The translations under genes and the position numbers were made by a program. This document shows, in pieces, positions 6,911 to 45,637 of a stretch of 45,637 bases of DNA (position 1 is the first letter of the stretch; the number at the start of each line of letters is the position of its first letter). Source of the DNA: Candidatus Jingweiarchaeum tengchongense (GTDB lineage Archaea > Nanobdellota > Nanobdellia > Jingweiarchaeales > Jingweiarchaeaceae); assembly GCA_025920705.1 (NCBI GenBank), contig JAPDLJ010000008.1, positions 1 through 45,637 on the forward strand, written 5' to 3'. The notes below the pieces were generated by a model. That model was not told the DNA's origin. It saw nothing but the letters and a program-made list of their open reading frames with translations, and ran no database searches.

Positions 6911-7228
6911 ATGATACCTTTTGTCAAGAGAGAGGGGAAGAGCTACAAAATTGGGATTAGATGTAAGGATAAAATAGAACTTTCAATCATAATTGAGGAC
7001 CCAAACGGGAATGTTGAGATATTCTTACCAGACATAAAAGATTTGCAAGCAAATTCTTTTTATGACCTCACCTATCTTTGTAATGTAAATTTGAAAAAAG
7101 TTAGAAAAAGTGGTGATGATTACTTCGTATTCTTTGAGCCTGAAAAGAAAGGTAAATTCATTGCAAAGTTCTTGATAAACAAGGGCAACGAGAAACTCAT
7201 GTTGAAACAAGACTTTTATATAAATTGA
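6911..7228 (+). CDS. Hypothetical protein, 105 residues, beta-rich
   Basis: No family recognised. The product is short, without signal peptide or membrane helix, and alternates hydrophobic and polar residues in short strands (YKIGIRCK, ELSIIIED, YFVFFEPE, GKFIAKFLI), suggesting a small beta-sandwich of Ig/transthyretin-like type. A TATA-like TTTAAAA box lies at 6876-6882, giving a very short or absent leader. It is divergent from the tpi operon, and its last 32 bases overlap the end of a convergent glycosyltransferase gene. The pattern GKFIAKFLINKGNEKL near the end could suit a carbohydrate-binding or scaffolding role, but this is speculation. Confidence 0.6.
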   Translation: MIPFVKREGKSYKIGIRCKDKIELSIIIEDPNGNVEIFLPDIKDLQANSFYDLTYLCNVNLKKVRKSGDDYFVFFEPEKKGKFIAKFLINKGNEKLMLKQDFYIN

Positions 7229-8321
7229 ATGTCTTCAATGCAATTTCCTTCCAACTTATCTCATTTGTTAACATGTATCCATTCATACCAATTCTTTTTC
7301 TTAAACCTTCATCTTTTAAGTATCGGTATATTGCATCGCGGAATTCATTTGTATTCATTGGATCAACAAGTATCGTATTTTCCCCATCTTTTAACATTTC
7401 AACTACACCAGCCCTTTTTGAGATTATCGTTGGCACTTTGTACTTCATCGCTTCCAATGCAACAATTCCAAATGGCTCATACAATGATGGCATTGCAAGT
7501 AATTTTGCTCCCTTGTAATATTCCACCAATTTCTCATCACTTACGAAACCTAGAAATTTAACATTTCTTTTGATGCCCAACAATTCAGTCAATTTTTCCA
7601 AGCTTTTTTTAAGATGTCCCTTACCAACCACATAAAGTTTCAGTTTCTTATATTTCTTAAATATTGGTAATAGTGCATAGATGAGGTACTCAACACCCTT
7701 TTGCTCCGTGAGTCTTCCAACAAACAGCACATAGTCCTTCTCTTTTCTGACTATGTCCTCCTTTGCCGGATCAATTCCATTGTACACGACTTGGATATCC
7801 CTTTTTACTTTAAACACATTTTTTATCTGCTCAGCCATGTGTTTACTCACAGTGATAACCAAATCAGCATTCTTTATTCCAATGCCCTCGACCTTCAATA
7901 CTCTACTTTTCTTTAAGAGTACTCCACCGCTCCTATCCAGTTCTGAACTGTGTATCGTGAGAACAAAAGGTATGTTGAAAAACTTCTTGATTTTTATCGC
8001 AGCATTCACATTCATCCAATCATGCGCATGCACGATATCAAATTTTACTCCAAGATTTTTTATACAATTGAAAACATTTTTTGGATACTTGTATATGATT
8101 GTGTTGACTTCATCTGTGTATGTCTTCTTTTCAAACTTATAATCCACTTTAACTATTTTTATTCCATCGACTTCATTCTCTTTGGGTGCATTTTTTCTTG
8201 GTATCGTGATGTAAACATCATTTCCAAGTAGAACAAGTTCTCTCGCAAGTGCGTAGCAATGCCTAGCTAGACCACCAGATATCTTCGGTGGGAACTCCCA
8301 ACCAAGCATGCAAATTTTCAT
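7197..8321 (-). CDS. GT-B glycosyltransferase, glycogen/starch-synthase-like (GT4/GT5)
   Basis: The N-terminus MKICMLGWEFPPKISGGLARH has the KxGGL-type nucleotide-sugar loop of starch and glycogen synthases, a central HAHDWMN motif, and a C-terminal EPFGIVALE motif (the E-x7-E of retaining GT-B enzymes). About 374 residues, shorter than classical glycogen synthases and typical of archaeal ones. It should transfer a glucosyl unit from a nucleotide sugar to a growing glucan or other glycan in the cytoplasm. I chose the ATG at 8321, where the conserved MKIxML start begins, over a TTG 12 bases upstream. A T/A-rich box about 30 bases upstream may give it its own promoter. One of three similar transferases here. 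Confidence 0.85.
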   Translation of the reverse strand: MKICMLGWEFPPKISGGLARHCYALARELVLLGNDVYITIPRKNAPKENEVDGIKIVKVDYKFEKKTYTDEVNTIIYKYPKNVFNCIKNLGVKFDIVHAHDWMNVNAAIKIKKFFNIPFVLTIHSSELDRSGGVLLKKSRVLKVEGIGIKNADLVITVSKHMAEQIKNVFKVKRDIQVVYNGIDPAKEDIVRKEKDYVLFVGRLTEQKGVEYLIYALLPIFKKYKKLKLYVVGKGHLKKSLEKLTELLGIKRNVKFLGFVSDEKLVEYYKGAKLLAMPSLYEPFGIVALEAMKYKVPTIISKRAGVVEMLKDGENTILVDPMNTNEFRDAIYRYLKDEGLRKRIGMNGYMLTNEISWKEIALKTFNLYKSLVST

Positions 8322-8366
8322 TACTTTAAACAAAGAAGGATAAAAATAAATTTGTTTCTAAACGCA

Positions 8367-9572
8367 TTAAAGCAGCTTTTGGTAGACTTCTATCGTCTTC
8401 ATTGCGATCTTATCCCATGTAAAATTTTCTTCAACTCTTTTCCTACCCTCTTCTCCGAACTGGATCATCTTTTTTTCATCGCTGAGCAATTCGATGATTG
8501 CATTCGCTATATCATCACTATTTCCAGGCCTAACGTGAAGCCCAGTCTTTTCATGAATGACGATTTCTTGTAATCCGCCTGTTTTTCCAACGATCACGGG
8601 CTTCTTCATTGCCATCGCTTCCAATGCAACAATCCCAAATGGCTCATACAAAGAAGGAAAAATACATATATCGCTTGCAGCATAGAACTTTATTCTCTCC
8701 TCCTCTGAAACAAACTCATTTACCATTATCACATTTCCAGATATCTTCAAATTTTCAACCATTTTTTTGATATAATCTTGCATTCCACCAATTCCAAGAA
8801 TCAAGAACTTTGTATTCGGAAATTTTTCGATTATTTTTGGTATTGAAAGCACGAGGTACTCAACACCCTTAACCCTCTCAAGTCTACCTACAAAGAACAC
8901 AAGCCTTTCATTCTCTTTTATCCCGTACCTTCTCCTTATCTCACCACCATCGATTCTATAGTCATACTTTTTTTCATCAATACCATTGTAAACCACATTT
9001 ATTTTTTCTTCAGGATAACCGAGCATCTTAAGTTCTTCTTTCATATGCTCACTCACAGTGATTATCATGTCAGCTTCCCTTGCACCGATTGCCTCGATGT
9101 CTTTGATCTCTTGAATGCCACTGCCCATGCTTCTTCCGTATTCGGTCGAATGATATGTAACAACGAGCGGAATTCCAAGTTCTTTCTTCGCCATTACACC
9201 AGCAATTATACCTAACCAATCATGCGCATGTACAATGTAATTGTCAGCATATTCACTGGTTAATTTTATAATTTCATTGTATGTTTGTAAATTGAATGAG
9301 ATGATATTCAGGAAAAATTCCTCAAAATCTCCAAGCCTTTGTATACTTTCCTTAAACAAAATCTTATCAAGCCATTTTAAGTTCGGAAATTTAATTCTTT
9401 TTACATCAATTCCTCTCACGAGCTCATTGCTCTCTGCCCTTTCCACATGTGGCGTTATCACATGTACCTCCTTACCATTTCTCACAAGCGCTTTTGAGAT
9501 TTCGAATCCATGTATACCTAACCCGCCAACGATGTTCGGTGGAAACTCCTTTAACACCATGATTATCTTCAT
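8367..9572 (-). CDS. GT-B glycosyltransferase, glycogen/starch-synthase-like (GT4/GT5)
   Basis: The 401-residue product shows the same layout as the transferases on either side: MKIIMVLKEFPPNIVGGLGIH at the N-terminus, HAHDWLG in the first Rossmann half, a GRLERVKGVEYL nucleotide-binding segment, and EPFGIVALEAM near the C-terminus. It is close enough to the 10147-11334 gene in sequence pattern (FPPNIVGGLG versus FPNIVGGLGMH) to be a probable paralogue. Role: retaining transfer of a sugar, likely glucose, from a nucleotide sugar. It follows the HIT gene by eight bases and is probably in the same operon. Whether it is the true glycogen synthase or a surface-glycan enzyme cannot be decided from sequence alone. 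Confidence 0.85.
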   Translation of the reverse strand: MKIIMVLKEFPPNIVGGLGIHGFEISKALVRNGKEVHVITPHVERAESNELVRGIDVKRIKFPNLKWLDKILFKESIQRLGDFEEFFLNIISFNLQTYNEIIKLTSEYADNYIVHAHDWLGIIAGVMAKKELGIPLVVTYHSTEYGRSMGSGIQEIKDIEAIGAREADMIITVSEHMKEELKMLGYPEEKINVVYNGIDEKKYDYRIDGGEIRRRYGIKENERLVFFVGRLERVKGVEYLVLSIPKIIEKFPNTKFLILGIGGMQDYIKKMVENLKISGNVIMVNEFVSEEERIKFYAASDICIFPSLYEPFGIVALEAMAMKKPVIVGKTGGLQEIVIHEKTGLHVRPGNSDDIANAIIELLSDEKKMIQFGEEGRKRVEENFTWDKIAMKTIEVYQKLL

Positions 9573-9580
9573 TTTCTCAC

Positions 9581-10141
9581 TTAAGGTTCTTCACCAAGTA
9601 ATACACCCACATATCTTCTCAAATGGTTTAAAACATCATCAAGAGAAGAAGGTATAACTCTTGTACCCGTGGCCTCCATGAATCCTGCTTCAACCGTATA
9701 TCTTGGAACAACATGTATATGGAGATGCTCAATGCTGGCACCACCAACTTTTCCAAGATTAATACCAATGTCAAATCCTTCTGGATTGTAGGCTGCTTTC
9801 AAGAGTTTTATACTCCTTTGCACCATCTTGAATAAGTAAAGTAAATCATCATCAGTCAGATCTAATATACTTATGTAATGTCTCTTTGGAACGACCATGA
9901 TGTGTCCCAATGTGTACGGAAAAACATTTAACATTACCATCAATTTCTCATCTTCATAAACAACCTTTCTTTCAATCCTAGGATCATTATTTGCAATCGC
10001 ACAGAATACACAACCAATCGATTCGTGCTCTCTTCTATAATATGTTTTCCTGCTTTTTGCCCATATGTAATCTTTGTATACACCCGCATAGCTTATTTGT
10101 TCTTCTTTTTTATCCTTTTTTTTACTCACCTTTTTTTTCAT
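9581..10141 (-). CDS. HIT-family protein, diadenosine-polyphosphate phosphorylase/hydrolase-like
   Basis: The protein has the histidine triad HLHIHVV (about residues 139-145), preceded by a zinc-type CVFC pair and the NxFPYTxGHIMVVPKRH strand of HIT proteins. The C-terminal part (GFMEATGTRVIPSSLDDV) is the extension seen in Ap4A phosphorylase-type HIT enzymes rather than plain HINT hydrolases. Family members act on dinucleoside polyphosphates or transfer AMP. The first 20 residues are a lysine-rich tail, unusual for the family. I chose the ATG at 10141 because a perfect AGGTGATC Shine-Dalgarno lies just upstream; a GTG three codons earlier is part of that site. Located between two glycosyltransferase genes in one operon. 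Confidence 0.85.
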   Translation of the reverse strand: MKKKVSKKKDKKEEQISYAGVYKDYIWAKSRKTYYRREHESIGCVFCAIANNDPRIERKVVYEDEKLMVMLNVFPYTLGHIMVVPKRHYISILDLTDDDLLYLFKMVQRSIKLLKAAYNPEGFDIGINLGKVGGASIEHLHIHVVPRYTVEAGFMEATGTRVIPSSLDDVLNHLRRYVGVLLGEEP

Positions 10142-10144
10142 CTT

Positions 10145-10152
10145 GATCACCT
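10145..10152 (-). promoter_or_regulatory. Strong Shine-Dalgarno (AGGTGATC) that sets the HIT start
   Basis: The - strand reads AGGTGATC ending three bases before the ATG at 10141, fully complementary to the archaeal anti-Shine-Dalgarno. It also overlaps the stop codon of the upstream glycosyltransferase (10147-10149), so translation of the two genes is likely coupled. Confidence 0.6.
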
Positions 10153-11334
10153 ATATAAAATTTCATTATAAACATTTAAGGTTTTTTCATAGCTTTTTTC
10201 CCAGGAAAAAATATACGCCCTTTTTCTAGCACAATCTCCCAATGCTTTTCTTCTGTCTTCATCGATTATCAAATAAGATATCTTTTCTGCCAATTCATTC
10301 ACATTACCTGGTTCAAAAAGAATGCCATTTCTCTCATTGTTTATTATTTCTCTTATTCCACCTGTGTTGCTTGCAATCACGGGCTTCTTCATTGCCATAC
10401 CTTCAAGTACGACAATTCCAAATGGCTCATACAAAGAAGGAACGACATATATATCACATGCATTTATCAAGTTTATCTTTGTGAATTCATCAATAAATTC
10501 TTTGATGAAGATAACATTTTTCTGTATCCCCAATTGATTTATCATTTCCTCAGCCATTGATTGCATTTCACCACCACTTCTCATTACCAATACTGCATTT
10601 TCATGTTTACTCAGAACAATTGAAAATGCCCTCAAAAGTACATCAAATCCCTTTACATACGCAGCTCTACCAAGAAATAATATCACTGGTCCATCTCCAA
10701 TTCCAAACTTCTTCTTCACTTCGTCTTTATTCAAGTCACTTCTTTCTGGATTGTATCTTTCAATGTCTATTCCATTGTAAATGACTTCTATTCTTTCAGG
10801 TTCGTAACCCAATTTAATTAGTTCGTTTTTCATGAAATCGCTATTTGTTATCACTTTGTCCGCGTTCTTCCCCATCTTTTCAAGCTCGATCACATTTGCA
10901 TTCGGGAATTTTGTCCTTCCTGTTTCAAGACTATGCACTGTAAAAATTAGTTTCTTGTTTAAGTGTGATTTTGCAATTAAACCAGCTTTTAGACAGAGCC
11001 AATCGTGTGCATGAATTAGATCAATTTTAACCGAATCATCGATGTGTTTGAGAACCTCTAAACATTGTATGTTATAATCTTCGTAATCTCCTTCGTACCA
11101 CCACTTCCATGTGTCCTTCAGAAAAAGACCATATATTCCTTTATTATCACAACTCTTTATTCTATAGACCTTCACACCTTCCACATAATCTTTATTTTTT
11201 TCATCACCTCTTGCCAAGCAAAGCACATAAACATCATTCTCCCTTGCCATCCTTCGATATAATTCGTAACTGTGCATACCTAACCCGCCAACGATGTTCG
11301 GGAAGAATTCCCAGGTAAGTGCTGCTATTTTCAT
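10147..11334 (-). CDS. GT-B glycosyltransferase, glycogen/starch-synthase-like (GT4/GT5)
   Basis: The 395-residue product begins MKIAALTWEFFPNIVGGLGMH, has HAHDWLCLKAG in the first half, a nucleotide-binding FLGRAAYVKGFDVL strand, and EPFGIVVLEGM (E-x7-E) near the C-terminus. This is the architecture of retaining GT-B glucosyltransferases related to glycogen synthase. It is the first gene of a - strand operon that continues through HIT and two more such transferases. A GTGATAG Shine-Dalgarno-like stretch precedes the ATG, and a TTTTTAAAT box lies about 30 bases upstream. It is divergent from the MazG-like gene. The three paralogues may make different linkages or act on different acceptors. 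Confidence 0.85.
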   Translation of the reverse strand: MKIAALTWEFFPNIVGGLGMHSYELYRRMARENDVYVLCLARGDEKNKDYVEGVKVYRIKSCDNKGIYGLFLKDTWKWWYEGDYEDYNIQCLEVLKHIDDSVKIDLIHAHDWLCLKAGLIAKSHLNKKLIFTVHSLETGRTKFPNANVIELEKMGKNADKVITNSDFMKNELIKLGYEPERIEVIYNGIDIERYNPERSDLNKDEVKKKFGIGDGPVILFLGRAAYVKGFDVLLRAFSIVLSKHENAVLVMRSGGEMQSMAEEMINQLGIQKNVIFIKEFIDEFTKINLINACDIYVVPSLYEPFGIVVLEGMAMKKPVIASNTGGIREIINNERNGILFEPGNVNELAEKISYLIIDEDRRKALGDCARKRAYIFSWEKSYEKTLNVYNEILYR

Positions 11335-35814: not shown

Positions 35815-37242
35815 TTAAATTTTGTACTCCCTTCCCTTCTCTATTTGTACCGCATTCTTCGCAATTTTCTTGAAGATATCAACATGATCAGTGTGCACAG
35901 GAAACAAAATCTTCGGATTTATCTCATTCACCATTTTCTCTATTTCTTTACCGCAAGCATGACCACTTGCATGTGCTCTTCTCATCGGAAGCTTGAAATG
36001 TGCTAGCCAATTCTTCATTCTGTTATAATCTATCTCCTGCTCCTCATCGAATGGCTCGCTTAGTGAGTAAATGTAGGTGCTTCCAATCATCGGCCTGATA
36101 TCAATCAGTTCATTCAGATCAAAGTAATTGCAGTAGAAAACAAACTTTTCCTGTTTCTTTCTTATATCATTACAATTCACGAGTTTTTCATGTTTCAGAA
36201 ATTCTCTTGCCCATTTGTCGTAGTCCTTTTCTATTTCGCTTATCGGGTAGTCTTCTGTTATTAATCCCCATCCACTCCTCGGTGCATATATTGACACTTC
36301 ATCCAATCTTGGTACCTTCAATCTTTTGTCAGACGAAAGAAGCTTCAATAGATACGCCATCTTCAATGAAATGACAAATTCTCTTCCATTTCGCTTAGAA
36401 ACATCGAAGAATGAGTTTAGTCTATCTATGTCTCTCGGTGAGAAATTCACGATCACGAGTTTTTTCGTTTCCTTTACAATTCCATCGATCTTCCTCTTCA
36501 CCTCATCTTCGCTAGGTCCAATTCTCCTTGACTTTACTCTCGTTCCTTCACATATCATCGCAATCGGTTTCTCCTTTTTAGCAGCTTCGATGAATTCATA
36601 AGTGAATTCCTTCATTGGCCCATGCATTCGAAAATCACCAGTGTAAACAATCGCACCTTTTGATGTATGAATAATGAAACCGTATGCTCCAGGAATTGAG
36701 TGATCGATGTGTATCGGCAATATTTCCAATGAGTCGATCTTTATTTTATCACCCGTTCTAAAAGTATTGAACTTTCGCTCAAACTTTGGTTTTTCCCTCC
36801 TGTTAACGAAACACTCCCGATACATGAAGAAATCCGTGTAATAGACACCCTGGCTCGTTTCCTGTACTGCTTGTAGGATGAATTTCGTCGTTTCACCACA
36901 ATATATCGGCACATCCTTATGAAGCAAGGAAACATGCCAGCAGTGGTCAGCATGCGCATGCGAGATGAGCACGCCGTCTATCCTTGGCTTGCCAGTGATT
37001 CTCCTTCCCTCTTTTTTCAACAAGTCATCCCTGTATATTCCATCGATATCAGGGATGATTCCAAATTCGAGTAAGTCTCCAAGACCATTCAATGTCCTTG
37101 GTTGTAGGAATTCACCATAATACTTCTTGCTCATTGAGAAGTTCATTCCAAAGTCCAGGAATATTTTTGTTTCCTTGTCTTCCAGAAGAATTTTGTTCCC
37201 ACCAATCTCATTAACTCCGCCATAAAAGGTGAGCGATGTCAA
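35815..37242 (-). CDS. Beta-CASP metallo-beta-lactamase nuclease (RNase J/CPSF-like)
   Basis: The 475-residue protein has the metallo-beta-lactamase core with SHAHADH (94-100), a downstream HIDHSIPGAYG, YTGDFRMHG and the beta-CASP insert (about 200-400), ending with HASGHACGKEI and LFPVHTDH, the motifs of RNase J/CPSF-type nucleases. It should cleave RNA, or possibly single-stranded DNA, from the 5' end or internally. Start is a TTG at 37242 (MTSLTFYGGVNEIGG), one base after the HerA stop; it matches the family's FYGGVNEIGGN opening. Last gene of the CARF-NurA-HerA operon. Archaeal genomes often carry such nucleases elsewhere, so its role here is inferred only from position. Confidence 0.85.
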   Translation of the reverse strand: MTSLTFYGGVNEIGGNKILLEDKETKIFLDFGMNFSMSKKYYGEFLQPRTLNGLGDLLEFGIIPDIDGIYRDDLLKKEGRRITGKPRIDGVLISHAHADHCWHVSLLHKDVPIYCGETTKFILQAVQETSQGVYYTDFFMYRECFVNRREKPKFERKFNTFRTGDKIKIDSLEILPIHIDHSIPGAYGFIIHTSKGAIVYTGDFRMHGPMKEFTYEFIEAAKKEKPIAMICEGTRVKSRRIGPSEDEVKRKIDGIVKETKKLVIVNFSPRDIDRLNSFFDVSKRNGREFVISLKMAYLLKLLSSDKRLKVPRLDEVSIYAPRSGWGLITEDYPISEIEKDYDKWAREFLKHEKLVNCNDIRKKQEKFVFYCNYFDLNELIDIRPMIGSTYIYSLSEPFDEEQEIDYNRMKNWLAHFKLPMRRAHASGHACGKEIEKMVNEINPKILFPVHTDHVDIFKKIAKNAVQIEKGREYKI

Positions 37243-37243
37243 T

Positions 37244-38743
37244 TCAAATCAACTCTTCCTTCACATACTTACCCTCAAACTTCCAAGCATGTATTGGAAC
37301 GGGAAATACGTAACCATCTTCAACTTCGCACATCAACTGCGCATCACCTTTGTCCTGCTGCATCAATTCTTCATCTGTCTGTATTGATGTAGCATCTTTT
37401 AGCGCCTGTATCTCGTCCTTGTGTATCAGGGTCATCGCTAACTTCGTTCCGACCTGTTTCAATATATCCACCTCTATTCCAGATGGATCTTGCTCAATGA
37501 AAAACAAGCAGATGTTGTTCTTCCTTGCTTCCTTCACAAAGTTTATGAAGAATTCATTTTCTCTGAGCAATCGATGCGCCTCCTCAATCACCAACCATAT
37601 TGGTTTTGTTTCGTTCAAAAACTGGTCTTGCGTGTGGTAATTGTCCCTCATCTTGAATCTCTCTTTGAATATCACCCTGGCGATGTAATTACATACCAAG
37701 AGCTCAATTCTTTCATCCATTATTCCGCTCAAATCCATGATGATTGACTTCGTCCTATTACAAACACTCATCAACTTCGAATAGAAATAACCATGCTGTT
37801 TATTTATATCAAATATTTTTTCATCGAGCACCAAGTTCAATCTCCTCATCACAGCATAGAAAGATTCCAATTCCCTCTTTGTTCTCACAATTTCACCGTC
37901 AGGACTTTTCTCCCTTTCTATGAATTCCTCAGCCTTTTTTAATTCCCCAATCCAATTTCTCCAATCTTTTTTATGCGCCCTTTGCATGATGTTCAGCTGT
38001 GGATCAGAGATCATGAATATGTCTCTCCAGTCATCTCTCGGATGGAACTCACTTGGATTTATCCTAATAATCTCAGAATTTGTTAACTTCCCTTCAACAC
38101 TCATCACTTCCATCCTGTCACTGAATTTTCGCTGTATTCCAAATTCAGTGAGTTTTTTTGATAGATCAGCATGCGTATCTATCACGATCACGTTCGCGTA
38201 CAGATTCGATATCGCTTCTGCAATAATATTTGCCGCAAGATTTGTTTTTCCACAACCAGTCATTCCAAAGATACCGATGTGCCTATTGAATGCTGCCTTC
38301 GGAATTCCAACCGAAATGTTATCGTTTCCTTTCAGCGCACCAATTGTGAGCGTTTTATTAAAAAATCTTGAATAGCTCTCATCCACATCCAAGACCTGGG
38401 TCTCTGCAGGGGAAGGTAATGTTCTAACGCGCTCAAAATCTCTGTCTCCGATTTTTGCGACAATCTTACCCTCATTTATGATGTAATACTCAAAAAAAGG
38501 ATTCTCTTTGAAGAATTCACCATAATCGACTTCCTCGCCCTTAAACCATTCCTTCACAATGAAGCTAAGCGGATTCTGAGAAACACTTTCTACCCGATGT
38601 GATGTGATCTTTGCAAGCCATCTCTCATTATTTTTCTTATCGTGTAAAACGACCAACTTGTTTGTTTCTATTGGCTTATCAATTGAGATCAGCTCAATCG
38701 TTGTTCCATCAATCCTAAACGCCTTAAATGGAATTTCATTCAT
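37244..38743 (-). CDS. herA: HerA DNA translocase/helicase
   Basis: The 499-residue product has the N-terminal HAS-barrel (about 1-130), Walker A GMTGCGKT (160-167), a VIVIDTHAD segment, the Walker B-type WLVIEEAHRLL and a C-terminal arginine region, typical of HerA/FtsK-type hexameric translocases. HerA works with the NurA nuclease to resect DNA ends ahead of recombination, usually beside Mre11-Rad50. Here NurA is directly upstream, overlapping by ATGA, but Mre11 and Rad50 are absent from the window. GGGTG lies seven bases before the ATG. The C-terminal half contains an EDGYVFPVPIHAW segment. Confidence 0.92.
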   Translation of the reverse strand: MNEIPFKAFRIDGTTIELISIDKPIETNKLVVLHDKKNNERWLAKITSHRVESVSQNPLSFIVKEWFKGEEVDYGEFFKENPFFEYYIINEGKIVAKIGDRDFERVRTLPSPAETQVLDVDESYSRFFNKTLTIGALKGNDNISVGIPKAAFNRHIGIFGMTGCGKTNLAANIIAEAISNLYANVIVIDTHADLSKKLTEFGIQRKFSDRMEVMSVEGKLTNSEIIRINPSEFHPRDDWRDIFMISDPQLNIMQRAHKKDWRNWIGELKKAEEFIEREKSPDGEIVRTKRELESFYAVMRRLNLVLDEKIFDINKQHGYFYSKLMSVCNRTKSIIMDLSGIMDERIELLVCNYIARVIFKERFKMRDNYHTQDQFLNETKPIWLVIEEAHRLLRENEFFINFVKEARKNNICLFFIEQDPSGIEVDILKQVGTKLAMTLIHKDEIQALKDATSIQTDEELMQQDKGDAQLMCEVEDGYVFPVPIHAWKFEGKYVKEELI

Positions 38744-39546
38744 TCCCAGACACCCCTAAAATTTGTCATCCAATTATTATATATTTTCGTTGCAATGTCC
38801 AATGCAGCATCTTCCACCTCTTCAGTTTCACCATACTTTGCGCTGTAGTATTCCATGTCATTTATGTGTGATCCCTTATGAACTAAAAACAAAGGTAGCG
38901 GATAGCCCGGGGAGATTGGATTCAATGCGTAGTAAAATAAAATTTTGAATGCGTCAATTTCATTCAAGTTCAAGAAATCAATCCTGAATGCAGGTACTTT
39001 TCGATTGAAATTCGCGATCATCGTGTCCCAGAAATAAACATTCTCATTTTTCTCAGCGATGAATGGATAAAAAATCCAAGGTTTCCTCATTCCCTTCTTC
39101 AATGCACTTCCATGCAAATAAATTGGGACAGGTAAATTGTCAATCGATATGCTCGTCTCCTTCGAAAGTCCAATTATCTTCTTTTCCCTCATCCACTCAT
39201 AATCCCTTCTTCTCATTCCACTGAGTGAACCATCTATAACTATCGCACATTCTGGATTCTCCTCAGCCAACTCCCTTGCGACATCCATTTCAAAAAATCT
39301 CATCACGTGAGAAGATTTCTTTTCACTGACTTCCTCTTTCTTTAACTTCACTCCCCTTTTAATTACGTTCCAATTTTTGAAAATTAGATAAGCAACCTTG
39401 AAGAGATATACATTTTTCCATAATACTTCCATCGAACCATCGACGAATATCACATTAAAATCTCCTGTTTTCTCAACCTTTTCAATTTCCTTGAAATTCT
39501 CAGCATTCAAATCAACAGTTTTAAAATACTTTGTGACCACATTCAT
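38740..39546 (-). CDS. nurA: NurA-family nuclease
   Basis: The 268-residue product has an IFVDGSME strand (D36) and a VIDGSLSG strand (D105), the aspartates that bind manganese in the RNase H-like NurA fold, then IGLSKETS and a C-terminal acidic/histidine region (HKGSHINDMEYY). NurA is a 5'-3' nuclease that works with HerA. The ATG is preceded by TAGGTG, which overlaps the stop of the CARF regulator eight bases upstream, so the CARF, nurA and herA genes are almost certainly one transcript. Confidence 0.85.
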   Translation of the reverse strand: MNVVTKYFKTVDLNAENFKEIEKVEKTGDFNVIFVDGSMEVLWKNVYLFKVAYLIFKNWNVIKRGVKLKKEEVSEKKSSHVMRFFEMDVARELAEENPECAIVIDGSLSGMRRRDYEWMREKKIIGLSKETSISIDNLPVPIYLHGSALKKGMRKPWIFYPFIAEKNENVYFWDTMIANFNRKVPAFRIDFLNLNEIDAFKILFYYALNPISPGYPLPLFLVHKGSHINDMEYYSAKYGETEEVEDAALDIATKIYNNWMTNFRGVWE

Positions 39547-39554
39547 TTTTACAC

Positions 39555-40214
39555 CTAGAGCAATATCCTCCCAAGCTCACTGATCTCGAACACCTTCTCC
39601 TTCCCTTTCTTTTCTGAGACAACGAAACCCTTTTCCTCCAAGTCACTCAAGTGCTGGTGACAAATCGGTATCGATTTCTTTGTTAGCTTGCTCACTTCTT
39701 TTATCGTCAGCCTCCTTTTTCTTCCCAACAGTTGCAATATCTCAAACTTCTCTTTTGTCAGGATTGAGGTCGATTCCAATGGGAGTATTGGTAATTCCAC
39801 AATCTTGTTTCCTTCCTCAGCAACGTAAAATATTTTTTTCACGTGTTGGCTTTCGAAGAATCCAGCGAGCATAACTGCAAACGGTAAAGTTTTCCTTCCA
39901 CCAGTCAAGTTCAAGTAAATTTCATTACCCTTCGCGCCTTCCTTTCTTATCAAATCCCTTATCTTTCTCACAATCGAAGGGATGTTATAGACATCGACTT
40001 CAATCATCTCAGTCTTTATGTTAAAAGGCTCTATCATCTTCATTACTTTCTCTCCAGTTTCTCTTGAGAACTCGTTCACGATCAAGTATAATACTTCGCA
40101 TCCAAACTTCTTTATTCCTTCGATTGGTGGCTCTGGTGGAGCGCCAACTGTGACAATATGTACTTTCACCATTGAAGATATCCTAAAAACTTCCTCTTTA
40201 TTAATATTTCGCAT
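39555..40214 (-). CDS. CARF-domain winged-helix regulator, Csa3-like
   Basis: The 219-residue protein starts with a Rossmann-like CARF fold (VKVHIVTVGAPPEPP...; YLIVNEF; about 15-145). It contains the NLTGGRKTL segment (102-110), the conserved ligand-loop motif of CARF domains that bind cyclic oligoadenylates. A winged-helix domain follows (about 150-219: FEILQLLGRKRRLTIKEV, SKLTKKSIPICHQHLSDLEEKGFV). This is the layout of Csa3-type regulators of CRISPR-Cas genes. Start at 40214 is leaderless-compatible: a TTTATAAA box is centred about 24 bases upstream. An ATG 42 bases further in is the alternative. It heads an operon with nurA, herA and a beta-CASP gene. Confidence 0.85.
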   Translation of the reverse strand: MRNINKEEVFRISSMVKVHIVTVGAPPEPPIEGIKKFGCEVLYLIVNEFSRETGEKVMKMIEPFNIKTEMIEVDVYNIPSIVRKIRDLIRKEGAKGNEIYLNLTGGRKTLPFAVMLAGFFESQHVKKIFYVAEEGNKIVELPILPLESTSILTKEKFEILQLLGRKRRLTIKEVSKLTKKSIPICHQHLSDLEEKGFVVSEKKGKEKVFEISELGRILL

Positions 40215-40222
40215 ATTATTTG

Positions 40223-40247
40223 AACTTATTTTTTTTATAAATAAGTT
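40223..40247. promoter_or_regulatory. Inverted repeat 1, candidate operator at the CARF regulator promoter
   Basis: Perfect arms AACTTATTT (40223-40231) and AAATAAGTT (40239-40247) with a 7-bp spacer. The arms enclose the TATA-like box of the CARF regulator (about 40234-40242), so a protein bound here would block or loop that promoter. Autoregulation by the wHTH protein is the obvious candidate, but this is inference. Confidence 0.55.
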
Positions 40248-40264
40248 ATTGTTTTAAACAATAA
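40246..40264. promoter_or_regulatory. Inverted repeat 2, candidate operator for the divergent Cas4-like operon
   Basis: Perfect arms TTATTGTTT and AAACAATAA around a single T. It touches inverted repeat 1 and lies just upstream of the TATTTAAATA box (40267-40276) of the + strand operon. Confidence 0.55.
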
Positions 40265-40296: not shown

Positions 40297-40611
40297 ATGA
40301 AAAATAGGAAAATTTCCGAGTTGAACCTCATGATCACAAGGCACGCTGCGCAGAGGATATTGGATAGATGGAGGATTCCAGTAAATGAAGCCAGGACTTA
40401 CATTGAAAGAGTAATATGTGAGGGATCTGCATTCCTGGAAAAGAAGAGTGGTGCGTTGATCTTCTTTTGGAATGGTTGGAAGGTCGTTCTCGCAAGTAGA
40501 AATGGGATTGACTTCGCTGTTGTCACGATCGCGAATGACGGCTATTATTACAAAGAAGGAAGACTGCGCGAATTGAAGTTGAATGTTAAAAAAATAAAGT
40601 GGATCGGTTGA
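40297..40611 (+). CDS. Hypothetical protein, possibly DUF4258/RelE-like
   Basis: The 104-residue product has an early TRHAAQRILDRWRI stretch, weakly resembling the HAxxRxxxR motif of DUF4258/RelE-superfamily proteins, then an LIFFWNGWKVVLASR beta-hairpin and FAVVTIANDGYYY. The proteins of that group are often toxins or small nucleic-acid-binding proteins, but the match is loose. First gene of a four-gene operon, leaderless-compatible, and opposite the CARF regulator across the double inverted repeat. No antitoxin-like partner is evident, though an unrecognised small protein follows. Confidence 0.5.
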   Translation: MKNRKISELNLMITRHAAQRILDRWRIPVNEARTYIERVICEGSAFLEKKSGALIFFWNGWKVVLASRNGIDFAVVTIANDGYYYKEGRLRELKLNVKKIKWIG

Positions 40612-40625
40612 AAGTGGTGATGAAC

Positions 40626-40862
40626 ATGAAAAAAATTGAAAACACACAATGCTTGGATAGTGAATTGGGAAAGATTGTTAAAGGAATTAGGAAAGGTATG
40701 GGGAAAAGATTGAAGAAGGGGAGAGAAGCGATTCTATTTGAATTTGTTGTTGAGTCAGATGGTAGAATCGTTGAAGTCTCGGCAACATTGCTCAAGAACA
40801 AGAATGAGTTTTTGAGGGAAATCGGAATTAAACCAATATCACAATTGAGATACATCGGGTGA
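40626..40862 (+). CDS. Hypothetical protein, 78 residues
   Basis: No family recognised. The chosen ATG at 40626 follows a GGTGAT Shine-Dalgarno at 40616-40621; the longer frame starts inside the previous gene. The N-terminal half is lysine-rich (KIVKGIRKGMGKRLKKGR), and the C-terminal half is a beta-rich segment (ILFEFVVESDGRIVEVSATLL). It ends just before the Cas4-like gene in the same transcript. Confidence 0.5.
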   Translation: MKKIENTQCLDSELGKIVKGIRKGMGKRLKKGREAILFEFVVESDGRIVEVSATLLKNKNEFLREIGIKPISQLRYIG

Positions 40863-40866
40863 TCAG

Positions 40867-41463
40867 ATGAAGGTAAAAGCTAGCTGGTTGACGATTTGGG
40901 CATGCTGTCAGTACCAGTTTCACCTTCATTTGAAATACGGCCCAATGTTCACAAGCAGGATGCTCGAAGGAAAGAAAAGGCATGAAAAGCTTTATTCTGA
41001 TTTCCTGAAAGATGCAGTTGAGCTTCCAGAAGGAACCGACATCATGAAATATTCACTCAAAAACACATTTTATACGCGGGAAATATTCTTAGAATGTGAT
41101 GAGTTGGTTGGTCGGTTGGATGGGCTTTTCGTTGATAATGGTCTTTTCATTCCGATAGAAGACAAGTTCACAAGAGCAGGTAACGGAGGACCTTTCTACC
41201 ACCACGTTCTCCAACTCTGGGCATACTGCTTCATCATCGAGAAAAAGAAAGGTGAGGTTGATTATGGTCTCATAAGGTACATTGACAATGTATTCAAAGT
41301 CAAGTATGATGAGAAGGCAAGGAGTACCGTGGCCAAGGCAATTAAGCAAATAAATTTATTCCTGAAGGGAAAGATAGCACCCGATGATTTGGAAGTATCG
41401 AGGGATGCTACGTACTGCAAGTATTGCGCTTACAATTCACTTTGCGATAGAAAACTCGGGTGA
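40867..41463 (+). CDS. Cas4-like/RecB-family PD-(D/E)XK nuclease
   Basis: The 198-residue protein has the Cas4 layout: an N-terminal cysteine pair (C13, C14), H39 in GKKRHE, D85 in GRLDGL, the ExK pair in IEDKF (E98, K100), a QLWAY motif (about 116-120) and a C-terminal C184/C187/C193 triad that with an N-terminal cysteine can hold an Fe-S cluster. Cas4 trims prespacers during adaptation; related proteins occur in archaeal viruses. This one is not beside cas1/cas2 (a separate Cas4 is) but lies in an operon of unrecognised small genes at the far side of the array, so it may be a standalone or virus-derived Cas4-like nuclease. Confidence 0.78.
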   Translation: MKVKASWLTIWACCQYQFHLHLKYGPMFTSRMLEGKKRHEKLYSDFLKDAVELPEGTDIMKYSLKNTFYTREIFLECDELVGRLDGLFVDNGLFIPIEDKFTRAGNGGPFYHHVLQLWAYCFIIEKKKGEVDYGLIRYIDNVFKVKYDEKARSTVAKAIKQINLFLKGKIAPDDLEVSRDATYCKYCAYNSLCDRKLG

Positions 41464-41469
41464 GAAGAT

Positions 41470-41859
41470 ATGGGGCGGAGGAGGAGGAACATCCCTGTGT
41501 TTGCTTACAAAGTGGTCTGTAATGTTCCTGGTAACTCTTCTGTTGTTGATCTGATTGGAACGAAGAAGTTGAGTAAGCAAGAATTCGAAATACTGATAAA
41601 AAGAGCATTGATTGTTGGTGCAAGAGCGTTGATCAAAAGACCGAATTCACCAATAACAGCAAAGAACATGTTGGACAAGGCACTCGAATTCCTGGACAAG
41701 AAGCACAAGCTTAAGAAAATCAATTACACATACATTTACAAGATACAGGCAAGACACAAGTACATTGATTTTGACATTGAGGCGTGGAGTAAGCATTTAC
41801 CAATGAACTTGATAAAAAGGATCAAGCGCTTCAATTCCAAGTTCTACAACGTGTATTGA
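41470..41859 (+). CDS. Hypothetical basic protein, 129 residues
   Basis: No family recognised. Highly basic (MGRRRRNIPVF; KKHKLKKIN; RIKRFNSK) with mostly helical pattern and no signal peptide, suggesting nucleic-acid contact. It follows the Cas4-like gene by six bases in the same operon and is the last gene before the CRISPR array. Function unknown. Confidence 0.5.
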   Translation: MGRRRRNIPVFAYKVVCNVPGNSSVVDLIGTKKLSKQEFEILIKRALIVGARALIKRPNSPITAKNMLDKALEFLDKKHKLKKINYTYIYKIQARHKYIDFDIEAWSKHLPMNLIKRIKRFNSKFYNVY

Positions 41860-41971: not shown

Positions 41972-42936
41972 ATTTCAATTCTACACTAGTTCTATTCAAA
42001 CATGGTATAAATAGAATATGTAAAGAACACCTAGGTAAATTTCAATTCTACACTAGTTCTATTCAAACTTCAAACAAGAAAGGTATGGGAAATATTTCCA
42101 CATCTGTATACATTTCAATTCTACACTAGTTCTATTCAAACTGTTTGAATTCAACAGTATAGTTGAATGCCCTGAGACATTTCAATTCTACACTAGTTCT
42201 ATTCAAACCAAAATTTCCAGGTGCTGAAATAATTGAGCATCTGGAATTTCAATTCTACACTAGTTCTATTCAAACAAGTTTTCCACTACCGCCTTCAAAT
42301 TATTTTATCATATTTCAATTCTACACTAGTTCTATTCAAACCAGAATGGTGCTTCAGCACAGACATTTACAATTACAGTATTTCAATTCTACACTAGTTC
42401 TATTCAAACCAGCTTTTATAATTTTGATTGGTAGAAGTATAACAGATTTCAATTCTACACTAGTTCTATTCAAACAATAATATTAACAAGACTTAAAAAT
42501 AAGAATTTAAGATTTCAATTCTACACTAGTTCTATTCAAACCGAGAGGTGTGTGTGGGAATACTTGAACATAAATAATTTCAATTCTACACTAGTTCTAT
42601 TCAAACTATTTTGATGATTGGGAGCTAGATTTGATTTTTGAAATTTCAATTCTACACTAGTTCTATTCAAACAGAAAGAGAAGAATGCGAAGAAATGCAT
42701 GGATGGGCATTTCAATTCTACACTAGTTCTATTCAAACGATAATGCATTCTTTGTATTCTATATTTGTAGTGGAATTTCAATTCTACACTAGTTCTATTC
42801 AAACAAAGAATATGAAGGAGACTATGAATTTGCTTTCTTCATTTCAATTCTACACTAGTTCTATTCAAACCATTCTAATTTATCCACCTAATAAATTTTA
42901 TTTTTTATTTCAATTCTACACTAGTTCTATTCAAAC
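41972..42936 (-). CRISPR. CRISPR array, 15 repeats and 14 spacers
   Basis: Fifteen identical 30-bp repeats, reading ATTTCAATTC at the + strand 5' end and ending TTCTATTCAAAC. Repeat starts: 41972, 42039, 42112, 42179, 42246, 42312, 42380, 42446, 42512, 42577, 42643, 42709, 42775, 42841, 42907. Spacers are 35-38 nt except one of 43 nt (42069-42111). On the - strand the repeat ends ATTGAAAT, the usual eight-base 5' handle of archaeal crRNAs, so transcription runs leftwards from the leader next to cas2 and the newest spacers are on the right. No repeat is degenerate, even at the leader-distal end. The repeat has little dyad symmetry. Confidence 0.98.
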
Positions 42937-43031: not shown

Positions 43032-43295
43032 CTAAATTATCGTTGAGATTCTACTTTTTTCAATTCCTATGACTTCCTTTCTCATCAATCTTTTATGTGG
43101 TAGGATAAAAAATAGTATGGAATCCTCATCCAATTTAATAATCTCTTTGAGTCCAATTTTAATCTGTTCTAGTTCAGCTTCTGTCAATTCACCTTCGAAT
43201 GCTGAATTTTGTATCCAATGTAAATATTGTCTTAAAAACTTACATACATTATTTACCCTATCAATTGAAATGTCATAAACAATTATTACATACAA
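43032..43295 (-). CDS. cas2: Cas2 adaptation endonuclease subunit
   Basis: The 87-residue product starts MYVIIVYDISIDR, the ferredoxin-like first strand with the conserved aspartate of Cas2, with R13 and a later FLRQYLHWIQNSAFEGEL stretch and FFILPHKR strand. Cas2 bridges two Cas1 dimers in the spacer integrase. A GGTGG lies before the ATG, overlapping the end of cas1. Directly upstream of the leader. Confidence 0.95.
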   Translation of the reverse strand: MYVIIVYDISIDRVNNVCKFLRQYLHWIQNSAFEGELTEAELEQIKIGLKEIIKLDEDSILFFILPHKRLMRKEVIGIEKSRISTII

Positions 43296-43298
43296 TTT

Positions 43299-44288
43299 TT
43301 ACCACCCCGACTTAAATCCTTCATATTCTTTTTCACCAATTAAGTGTTTGATTAATTTGTAGCATTCCAATCTAATCAATTTTTGATAAGAAACCTTCCT
43401 TTTCAGTTCTTTATGCATTATCGTTGTCTTTAGTTTTTCATCGTACATTGAAATAAATGTCCTTCTACCCTCCTCGTTTAGGTAACAAAAGTTGAGTTCA
43501 TCTAAAAAATGACTTTCCTTTATTATTCTGTTATTTACCAAACTGAAGATTATCCTATCAGTGATTATTGGCTTAAAAATCTCGCTTATGTCCAAACTTA
43601 ATGAAAATCTTCTTTCCCCAGGTTCATGTAAATAACTGATAGTCGGATTCAGTTGTGTGTGATATATTTCAGTTAATGTAGTTGTATAGAGTAATGAATT
43701 CCCAAAAGATATTAAACAATTTATCATATTATCTGGGGGTCTTTTCACTCTTTTTTCAAATTCAAATCCCGCTCTTAATACAACATTAAAACTCTGATAA
43801 TAATACTCTCTTACTCTTCCTTCGATACCCATTAAATTTGGGATATCCTTCACTTCACCTAACTGTTTCCTCTCGCTTTCTATTTCTTTGATGCTTTCGG
43901 AGACATCTTTACCCTGTTTCTCATAGTATTGAAGATTTTTTAATATGTTATGAATTGCAGAATTTACGATTTCTTTTGCAATTTTAAGCCTTTTCTCTTT
44001 GTCTAGATAACTCTCAACTTGTTTAACGATTAGAAATCCAGAATTTAAGTATTCCCTAGGATAATAAGTACCAACATAATAACCATAATAATTGAAGAAG
44101 TGTATAGGGATTCTCTTCTGGGAGAGAAAGACAAGGAGTTTTGTGTTGATGTCAAGTTCACCCATTACAAATATAGCATTAACTTCATTGATCGGAATTG
44201 GTTTTTTTTCTTCCTTTGTTTCCAAATATAACGTATTTTGTTTTCTTTTCAATCTTCCACTTTTCAATATGTAATAATCTTTTTTCAT
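43299..44288 (-). CDS. cas1: Cas1 integrase
   Basis: About 329 residues. The active-site glutamate is in MGIEGRVREYYY (E156 from the chosen start), the histidine in SYLHEPGERRFSLSLD (H221) and the acidic pair in DISE nearby, as in Cas1. It inserts new spacers at the leader end. I chose the ATG at 44288 because a GGTG lies about seven bases upstream and the longer frame starts inside the cas4 stop. The PDNMINCLISFGNSLLY helix and the small N-terminal beta domain are typical of type I-associated Cas1. Confidence 0.97.
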   Translation of the reverse strand: MKKDYYILKSGRLKRKQNTLYLETKEEKKPIPINEVNAIFVMGELDINTKLLVFLSQKRIPIHFFNYYGYYVGTYYPREYLNSGFLIVKQVESYLDKEKRLKIAKEIVNSAIHNILKNLQYYEKQGKDVSESIKEIESERKQLGEVKDIPNLMGIEGRVREYYYQSFNVVLRAGFEFEKRVKRPPDNMINCLISFGNSLLYTTTLTEIYHTQLNPTISYLHEPGERRFSLSLDISEIFKPIITDRIIFSLVNNRIIKESHFLDELNFCYLNEEGRRTFISMYDEKLKTTIMHKELKRKVSYQKLIRLECYKLIKHLIGEKEYEGFKSGW

Positions 44289-44290
44289 AT

Positions 44291-44785
44291 TCAGCACCAG
44301 CACAATTCATAATAACTGCACTTCTTACAGTAAGGTTTTCTTTCAGCTCTGGGAATCATATTAGAAGACACGATCTTCTTTATCTCCATAATTATTTTTT
44401 TAAGCTCTTTCTCTTTTTCTGGCGTTAAAATGACCTTGACTCTTTTCCTTAGAATTGGATAATTTATTATTCCAGTGGCTGTTATACCTAAATCCTTTAA
44501 ATAAAACAAATAGTAAAGCATCTGCCATTCATGCGCTTTTTCCATTTTTCTCGACTTTTTTACTTCATGCACTTCACATTTACTTTCTAGAAAATCTATT
44601 TTAATGCTTCCGATTTCAATCTCTTTTAATTTTCTTGAATAACTTTTTTCATGAATGATTTTTCCAAGAGCAACAGCATCTGAAGTCTGTTCCATTTCTA
44701 TTTTCTTAGATGAGAGCCATAGCTGTCTCTTGCATACAAAATACTGATTTATTTTTGCACCTGTAATTCTATAAAATTTGTACAT
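44291..44785 (-). CDS. cas4: Cas4 nuclease of the adaptation module
   Basis: The 164-residue product has C18 (FVCKRQLWL), H45 in GKIIHE, D64 (IDFLE), E74 and K76 (HEVKKS), a QMLYY motif and a C-terminal cysteine group (C153, C156, C162, C164) for an Fe-S cluster. Cas4 selects and trims prespacers with a proper PAM. Two bases from cas1 and in the order cas4-cas1-cas2, the normal adaptation module. The sequence is a different paralogue from the Cas4-like protein at 40867-41463. Confidence 0.92.
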   Translation of the reverse strand: MYKFYRITGAKINQYFVCKRQLWLSSKKIEMEQTSDAVALGKIIHEKSYSRKLKEIEIGSIKIDFLESKCEVHEVKKSRKMEKAHEWQMLYYLFYLKDLGITATGIINYPILRKRVKVILTPEKEKELKKIIMEIKKIVSSNMIPRAERKPYCKKCSYYELCWC

Positions 44786-44789
44786 AATT

Positions 44790-45637
44790 TTAGTGGTGTA
44801 TATATGATTTCAGAAAATCATTTTCATTATAGATTTTAAGTTTTGTGATTTCTCTATACTCATTAAACTTTGATCCAAACTGATGCTTTAAGAAATTATA
44901 ATATTGCCCAATTATTTTATCTAATAATTTGGTATCAATTTTTTTTTCTGAACCACCGTGTATTAAAGGATGGAAATTTCTCCAATTTCGAAGTACCTCA
45001 ACATAATCCTTCTCACTCATTAAATATTTTTTGAATTCTAAGTATAATTCATCGTCAAGTGCTTCCAAGATTGCTTCCATTTCCTTCAAATATATGGGTA
45101 ATTTTAGTAGTCTTGTCTTTGCCCCTTCATAATCTATTTTTATATCCTCTTTCTGCATTTTTTCCTTGTATGTTCTAATTATTTTATCCAACTTTTCGTT
45201 TGGGAATACATTATTAATTTCTTTATCTCTTGCGTAATTATATTTGTCCAGTAGTCTCCACTCCATCAAACTTTCAATTGATCTGTAAAGAGGTAGCACT
45301 ACTTCTTTCAGTTCACTTTTTCTAAACTTGCGAAGTGCATTTTCAAATAAATCAAAAGTAAAGAATAACTTAAAAAGTTTGGAATTATTCAAGATGCTTG
45401 ATAGAAAATTGATTTTTTTATCAATAAAATTATACCATTCTTCATATAATTTCTCATACTTAAATTTTTCAATTATTTCTTTAGCGCTTTTTAAATGATT
45501 TAATGAAGTTCCATATTCAAATTGGTCCCACTCTAAAAAAGCCTTGGATAATTCATAAAAAAAATTTGCCTTTTCACTTTCAAAAACATTCAGAATTTTC
45601 CTACCATGTTTAAATAATACGATGGCCGTACTGAAAT
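44790..45637 (-). CDS. CRISPR-associated CARF protein resembling TIGR02710 (partial)
   Basis: The frame is open to the right edge, so only the C-terminal roughly 280 residues are visible; the in-window TTG at 45392 is probably internal. Motifs: TAIVLFKHGR near the visible start, an LFFTFDLFENALRKFRKSELKEVVLPLYRSIESLMEWRLL helix pair, and a NFHPLIHGG segment. These resemble the Cas02710 family C-terminal region, where the Rxx..LYRALE helix and RN..HG motif recur, sharing CARF folds that respond to cyclic oligoadenylate. It lies just ahead of cas4. Without the N-terminal CARF domain the assignment is provisional, and other all-helical effector families remain possible. Confidence 0.5.
   Translation of the reverse strand, partial: FSTAIVLFKHGRKILNVFESEKANFFYELSKAFLEWDQFEYGTSLNHLKSAKEIIEKFKYEKLYEEWYNFIDKKINFLSSILNNSKLFKLFFTFDLFENALRKFRKSELKEVVLPLYRSIESLMEWRLLDKYNYARDKEINNVFPNEKLDKIIRTYKEKMQKEDIKIDYEGAKTRLLKLPIYLKEMEAILEALDDELYLEFKKYLMSEKDYVEVLRNWRNFHPLIHGGSEKKIDTKLLDKIIGQYYNFLKHQFGSKFNEYREITKLKIYNENDFLKSYIHH

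Follow-up and report, generated by a model that had tools for sequence, protein, structure and literature searches.

A NurA–HerA pair and a beta-CASP nuclease in a predicted operon headed by a Csa3-like CARF regulator at a CRISPR locus of Candidatus Jingweiarchaeum tengchongense

Four closely packed genes lie to the left of the CRISPR array in a 45,637-nucleotide stretch of Candidatus Jingweiarchaeum tengchongense DNA (contig JAPDLJ010000008.1, here C39), and encode a CARF protein with a winged helix-turn-helix (wHTH) domain, a NurA nuclease, a HerA-type DNA translocase, and a metallo-beta-lactamase (MBL)/beta-CASP nuclease (Table 1). The stretch, hereafter the window, is the entire contig; the genome is 1.12 Mb in 40 contigs with an estimated completeness of 92.5%, and the absence of a gene from it was judged from targeted searches. 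When coordinates, strands and gaps were recomputed, all four genes are on the minus strand with 8 bases between the CARF gene and nurA, a 4-base overlap of nurA and herA, and a single base between herA and the beta-CASP gene, and the families were confirmed; this part of the original prediction, made from the letters of this DNA, stands. Each of the four proteins (35815–40214) retains its catalytic or ligand motifs, and the array is 1.76 kb from the CARF start. The sequence gives good support both for the layout of the operon and for a CARF protein of the transcription-regulator type. The reading we favor, and which we put at about an even chance, is that the four genes form one operon of a DNA-end-processing module that is linked to a type III-A CRISPR system, controlled by a Csa3-like regulator, and driven by cyclic oligoadenylate.

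Table 1. Positions of the four-gene operon, the predicted control elements and the CRISPR-associated features in the window
Feature	Position	Strand	Remarks
CARF-wHTH regulator	39555..40214	-	219 aa; Csa3-like / HFX_2341-type; NLTGGRK intact
NurA nuclease	38740..39546	-	268 aa; PF09376, alignment, fold match to 2ygk
HerA-type DNA translocase	37244..38743	-	499 aa; PF01935, Walker motifs, tree
MBL/beta-CASP nuclease, RNase J-like	35815..37242	-	475 aa; metal motifs and motif C His all intact
TATA-like box TTTATAAA	40234..40241	-	centre ~24 nt from CARF ATG; putative promoter
Candidate operator: TTATTGTTT-T-AAACAATAA, a perfect 9-1-9 inverted repeat	40246..40264		between two putative divergent promoters
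Open reading frame (ORF), 104 aa	40297..40611	+	first gene of divergent run; no Pfam match
ORF, 87 aa	40599..40862	+	second gene of divergent run; no Pfam match
Second Cas4 nuclease	40867..41463	+	third in divergent run; TIGR00372 73.0 vs 65; PF01930
CRISPR array	41972..42936	+	15 identical 30-bp repeats, 14 spacers
cas2	43032..43295	-	TIGR01573 45.0
cas1, I-B type sequence family	43299..44303	-	TIGR03641 492
cas4, adaptation module	44291..44785	-	TIGR00372 91.1
Csm6-type gene, 3' part	44790..45635	-	HEPN RNWRNFH; 5'-open frame cut by contig end

The CARF protein matches the Csa3 model TIGR01884 over residues 48–214, a segment that includes the CARF and C-terminal wHTH domains (78.5 bits, cut-off 60.2). 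Of the N-terminal Pfam models, PF19810 (HFX_2341_N; 53.9, cut-off 30) fits better than Csa3_N (PF22662), for which the score of 24.8 is below the cut-off of 27. There is also a match to PF09651 of the APE2256 family (37.7, cut-off 24.8), although the Csa3 and HFX_2341 models fit better and the wHTH is present. An AlphaFold model of the protein (pLDDT 89.6) has Sulfolobus Csa3 as its best PDB match over the full length (2wte; E 1.3e-10), followed by SSO1393 and Sis0811, both from Sulfolobus, and then by Csm6. Its most likely role is in regulating transcription. The ligand motif of CARF proteins in general, (D/N)-x-(S/T)-x3-(R/K) (PMC8844856), is kept as NLTGGRK; the CARF alignment is too diverse for a pattern scan. 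A second CARF-family gene in the genome (contig C1, ~55.3 kb; locus L187, 5265–5996) has a degenerate ligand motif, DVSSTTK. We note that CARF-wHTH genes stand first in three other gene runs in the same phylum: one with a PD-(D/E)XK nuclease and a ResIII helicase (L194, 5742–10490), one with a weak NucS-like match (L195, 2535–4505), and one with NucS-like and PD-(D/E)XK nucleases, an Eco57I-type methylase, and a helicase (L052, 436–8820).

The NurA protein scores 28.4 against the PF09376 cut-off of 21, and when it is aligned with 12 other NurAs, residues D35, E85, D104, K128 and Y214 are invariant (numbering without the Met). It has the D-E-D catalytic residues (D35, E85 and D104) together with the RNase H-like NurA fold, and its predicted structure matches Sulfolobus NurA (SsoNurA, 2ygk; E 6.8e-10) as well as the Thermococcus NurA (TkNurA) of the HerA–NurA complex. 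Identity to relatives is only 15–23%, the alignment is too diverse for a pattern scan, and a single-protein scan of the genome and viral contig collections found no close relatives. HerA scores 80.7 for its central domain (PF01935, cut-off 23.2) and has Walker A (GMTGCGKT) and Walker B (LVIEEAH) motifs. No relatives of HerA, the beta-CASP protein or the CARF protein were found in the viral contig collection, nor any of HerA in phages. An identification of HerA as CedD was not adopted (model score 85, cut-off 600, with no Ced context seen).

A single NurA in the genome exceeds the PF09376 cut-off (the other match, on contig C37, scores 14.1 against 21) and there is one clear HerA, beyond which only a weak match was found, so that the operon pair is the only NurA–HerA pair detected. 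The mre11 gene is on contig C1 (182365–183540) within rnhB-mre11-rad50 (G000, C1 181.6–185.5 kb; L197, 7634–11553), and neither nurA nor herA is present at that locus. Relatives carry nurA and herA between rnhB and mre11; the pair adjoins mre11 at L047–L049, L082–L084 and L089, with rad50 there too in L047–L049 and L082, and in genome G010 nurA/herA is behind rnhB. In a tree of 40 HerA sequences the operon HerA falls outside the housekeeping HerA clade of the phylum, its branch measuring 6.56 changes per column, and a bacterial HerA (Priestia) is nearer to that clade than it is; the branches are long and the exact position is not to be read. A HerA off the clade on so long a branch points either to replacement by a divergent pair or to relocation of a pair that evolves very fast. 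Neither the mre11-rad50 linkage nor the lineage HerA clustering of a housekeeping mre11-rad50-herA-nurA operon is seen, and a housekeeping operon placed here by chance, which the original prediction had allowed for, is a poor fit to the separate rnhB-mre11-rad50 locus and the off-clade HerA.

A different account is that an ordinary resection partner of Mre11–Rad50 has moved beside the CRISPR locus, and that the CARF protein ties the capacity for repair to infection or stress, much as Csa3a and Csa3b do in trans in Sulfolobus. The presence of just one detected NurA–HerA pair, and of mre11-rad50 without nurA or herA, is in keeping with such a move, as is the finding that overexpression of Csa3b in Sulfolobus islandicus raises nurA, rad50, mre11 and herA 2.4- to 3.0-fold (PMC7480081). 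However, the placement of HerA outside the housekeeping clade with a bacterial HerA closer (subject to the long-branch caveat) and the low identity of NurA to its relatives speak against it, and we consider a relocated pair possible but on balance unlikely. We continue to favor the type III-A-linked module.

The fourth protein scores above the cut-offs for Lactamase_B_2 (36.7) and RMMBL (26.6), contains the motifs HAHADH, GDF, SGHA and PVH, and aligns end to end with its relatives. Its motif C has a His, the residue of RNA-type beta-CASP nucleases. With the RNase J model TIGR00649 the protein scores 115.6, short of the cut-off of 400. Members of the family are found widely in archaea and Chloroflexi, and on thermophile plasmids as well; its neighbors elsewhere include several repair or restriction genes, and the plasmid relatives are near restriction-modification genes. 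We rejected two other assignments. One is Cas14 of type VII CRISPR systems (NCBIfam Cas14 model 23.8, cut-off 800), which is likewise a beta-CASP nuclease near CRISPR, although here there is no Cas7-Cas5 operon partner. The other is a constant partner of NurA–HerA, since 80 loci of the family show mostly other neighbors. In Dehalococcoidia, there are loci in which a beta-CASP gene of the same family is directly followed on the same strand by a Rad50-like ATPase gene (L124, 8001–11703; L126, 8001–12099; L137, 2310–5975); no Mre11 was detected within these stretches, and the beta-CASP protein there could be the nuclease partner of Rad50.

A source of cyclic oligoadenylate is predicted from the Cas10 with GGDD encoded elsewhere in the genome. 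Contig C26 carries cas6, cas10/csm1 with HD and YSGGDD (Csm1_B, 104 bits; palm2, 95.7), csm2, and the start of csm3, which is cut by the contig end, and the combination of a GGDD-containing Cas10 and Csm subunits is that of a type III-A system. In the window, a Csm6-type HEPN gene heads the cas4-cas1-cas2 run at the right end, with a PF09670 score of 27.0 at the cut-off of 27 and a PADLOC assignment of CARF_HEPN/Csx1. Both contigs end within csm genes, C26 in csm3 and C39 in the Csm6-type HEPN gene, and the two may join through csm4-csm5. In the array, spacers 2 and 3 (42002–42178) start with repeat-like letters (TTCAAACAAG and TGTTTGAATT), and spacer 2, with its 43 bases, is unusually long. 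Further to the left in the window (7197–11334, minus strand) are three paralogous genes of ~380–400 aa with near-identical 45-base stretches, an apparent local triplication.

An 82-base spacer separates the CARF start from the divergent ORF at 40297. The position of the TATA-like box within it would fit a leaderless archaeal transcript of the CARF gene; sigma-70 and terminator scans were uninformative, the host being an archaeon. The palindrome in the spacer is the sole exact one in the window with arms of at least 9 bases and a spacer of 0–1, and no other place in the genome has its exact sequence; weaker matches are at background level (14 places, compared to 10 for a reversed control). The divergent run (40297–41859, plus strand) lies between the putative shared promoter and the array, and consists of two small ORFs, the second cas4 and a 129-aa ORF.

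We propose that the CARF-wHTH protein would regulate its own operon, and probably the divergent cas4-containing run as well, at the palindrome at 40246–40264. Upon infection, Cas10 would make cyclic oligoadenylate, and binding of this by a CARF dimer would change its DNA binding such that expression of NurA, HerA and the beta-CASP nuclease is raised (or released). NurA and HerA would form a translocase-nuclease composed of a HerA ring and a NurA dimer that resects or degrades the ends of invader double-stranded DNA; it may also act in host repair with Mre11–Rad50, or provide prespacers for Cas4-Cas1-Cas2. The beta-CASP enzyme, of the RNA type by its motif C His, would trim RNA or R-loop/DNA products. 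The original prediction was that nucleic acid processing by these enzymes might be switched by a signal nucleotide, and the operon, the NLTGGRK motif, the Cas10 GGDD, the Csm6-type HEPN, and the candidate operator all lend support to a switch. Its point of action needs to be revised, because a CARF-wHTH protein most likely regulates transcription and the switch is thus probably on gene expression and not direct activation of the enzymes. The operon is probably infection-regulated. Its place next to the CRISPR locus, together with the CARF regulator at its head, suggests that infection acts as a switch on DNA-end processing. We hold only tentatively, and think it somewhat improbable in full, a broader scheme in which the sole NurA–HerA is placed under an infection second messenger by the CARF-wHTH protein at the head of its operon, the beta-CASP nuclease is a third component, and the divergent cas4 run is co-regulated through the shared operator, such that end processing, prespacer supply and the type III alarm constitute a single circuit.

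Several observations weigh against the cyclic oligoadenylate-driven module. The first concerns the ligand. The Csa3-specific motif for binding the adenine of cyclic tetra-adenylate (cA4), motif 1, is hydrophobic-G-F-(N/D)-x-polar-F (PMC8844856), and in the equivalent loop here VGAPPEPP stands in place of GF(N/D)xxF, so that a different ligand may be bound; this is why we file the protein as Csa3-like and not as Csa3. Second, such a palindrome has a 3.75% chance of arising in a random 82-nt AT-rich sequence of the same composition, so that the candidate operator is suggestive but is not proof, and a role in marking a regulon that includes cas10 was rejected, as there is no such site on C26. Third, the join of C26 and C39 is unassembled and the type III effector and the operon may be far apart. 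Moreover, with a metagenome-assembled genome that is 92.5% complete a second NurA or HerA could be missing, and the beta-CASP family elsewhere is mostly without linkage to NurA, HerA or CARF.

Some of these points bear on the alternative that the CARF protein is a local autorepressor with no cyclic oligoadenylate input, and that the operon is a general set of a defence or anti-plasmid island. The absence of the Csa3-specific motif 1 would be accounted for, as would the CARF-wHTH genes of the phylum that also head nuclease/helicase or restriction-modification runs, and the plasmid-borne beta-CASP relatives with restriction-modification genes nearby. However, the protein retains the ligand motif of CARF proteins in general, and the genome encodes both the Cas10 GGDD and the Csm6-type HEPN, so that we regard a ligand-independent autorepressor as improbable, and retain the cyclic oligoadenylate-driven module as the preferred reading.

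Conservation also counts against this reading. Of 371 genomes surveyed in the phylum, 76 have PF19810 CARF genes, 121 have NurA and 156 have HerA (HerA threshold, E 1e-8), and comparison of contig and position lists shows a CARF gene beside NurA or HerA in no other genome. The conservation of the CARF gene beside nurA-herA to which the original prediction had looked is thus negative, but the test is a weak one, since the relatives sampled share at most the class with this genome, which is the only sampled member of its family. The lack of the linkage in other genomes, and the other contexts in which the beta-CASP gene is normally found, raise the alternative that the genes are adjacent by chance in a compact genome and that CARF is not coupled to nurA-herA-beta-CASP. 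Against this are the three junctions of 8, -4 and 1 bases, an independent report of CARF-nurA-herA linkage at CRISPR loci (PMC3396285), and rough odds of ~0.6% that the nurA-herA pair would be operon neighbors of either of the two PF19810 CARF genes that the genome has, and of ~1% that it would be within 6 kb of the sole array with its repeat; these odds assume uniform placement and are not a rigorous test. We consider chance adjacency very unlikely. At face value the four-gene adjacency is not a chance artefact, although its conservation is unproven.

The original prediction regarded this as a new combination, but that claim has to be narrowed. Clusters of nurA-csm6-herA beside CRISPR arrays were described in 2012 in Pyrobaculum, Thermoproteus and Vulcanisaeta (Thermoproteales), with csm6 belonging to the APE2256 family, a CARF family, and apparently co-transcribed with nurA; their NurA–HerA are CRISPR-specific paralogs for which a role in adaptation was proposed (Bernick et al. 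2012; PMC3396285). The CRISPR-linked genes named there include PAE0122/PAE0128, Pcal_1294/Pcal_1296 and Vdis_1157/Vdis_1158. Both there and here a divergent nurA/herA pair is grouped with a CARF gene beside an array. However, the Thermoproteales order is nurA-CARF-herA, whereas here the CARF gene is first (CARF-nurA-herA-beta-CASP) and its product has a wHTH, a beta-CASP gene joins the set, no other NurA–HerA pair was detected in the genome, and the host belongs to another archaeal phylum, one with small genomes. Similarly, in Sulfolobus a CARF-wHTH factor raises nurA and herA along with CRISPR genes, as seen in the Csa3b data above and, according to the account in PMC8616872, in the activation of the NurA and HerA genes by Csa3a (Liu et al. 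2017). The Sulfolobus regulator acts in trans on an essential nurA-rad50-mre11-herA operon, whereas here the regulator gene comes first in the nurA-herA operon itself, with mre11-rad50 at a separate locus. NurA and HerA are also named in a figure legend on putative CRISPR auxiliary genes (PMC10910872). Taken with the 2012 clusters, the Csa3 data indicate that the association of CARF, nurA and herA was already known and that it is the arrangement here that is new.

Other known systems share fewer features. The canonical archaeal herA-mre11-rad50-nurA repair operon has in common the NurA fold and catalytic residues and the HerA Walker motifs, but here there is no mre11-rad50, HerA is outside the lineage clade, and CARF and beta-CASP genes are present. 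HerA-nuclease antiviral systems such as HerA-DUF4297 and HerA-Sir2 likewise pair a HerA-type ATPase with a nuclease, and the PADLOC HerA and mad8 models match, but here the partner is NurA and the regulator a CARF-wHTH protein, and the operon HerA scores only 60.6 and 35.8 with NCBIfam antiphage HerA models that have cut-offs of 850 and 800.

The occurrence in a distant phylum of a counterpart to the 2012 Thermoproteales clusters argues that the grouping of CARF with NurA–HerA at CRISPR loci is functionally real and not a peculiarity of the Pyrobaculum group. The operon bears on where archaeal CRISPR adaptation gets its DNA fragments, on how their ends are processed, and on how CRISPR signalling is linked to DNA repair. 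With a CARF-wHTH regulator atop NurA–HerA, a signalling-repair link could be put to a direct test using four genes and one candidate operator.

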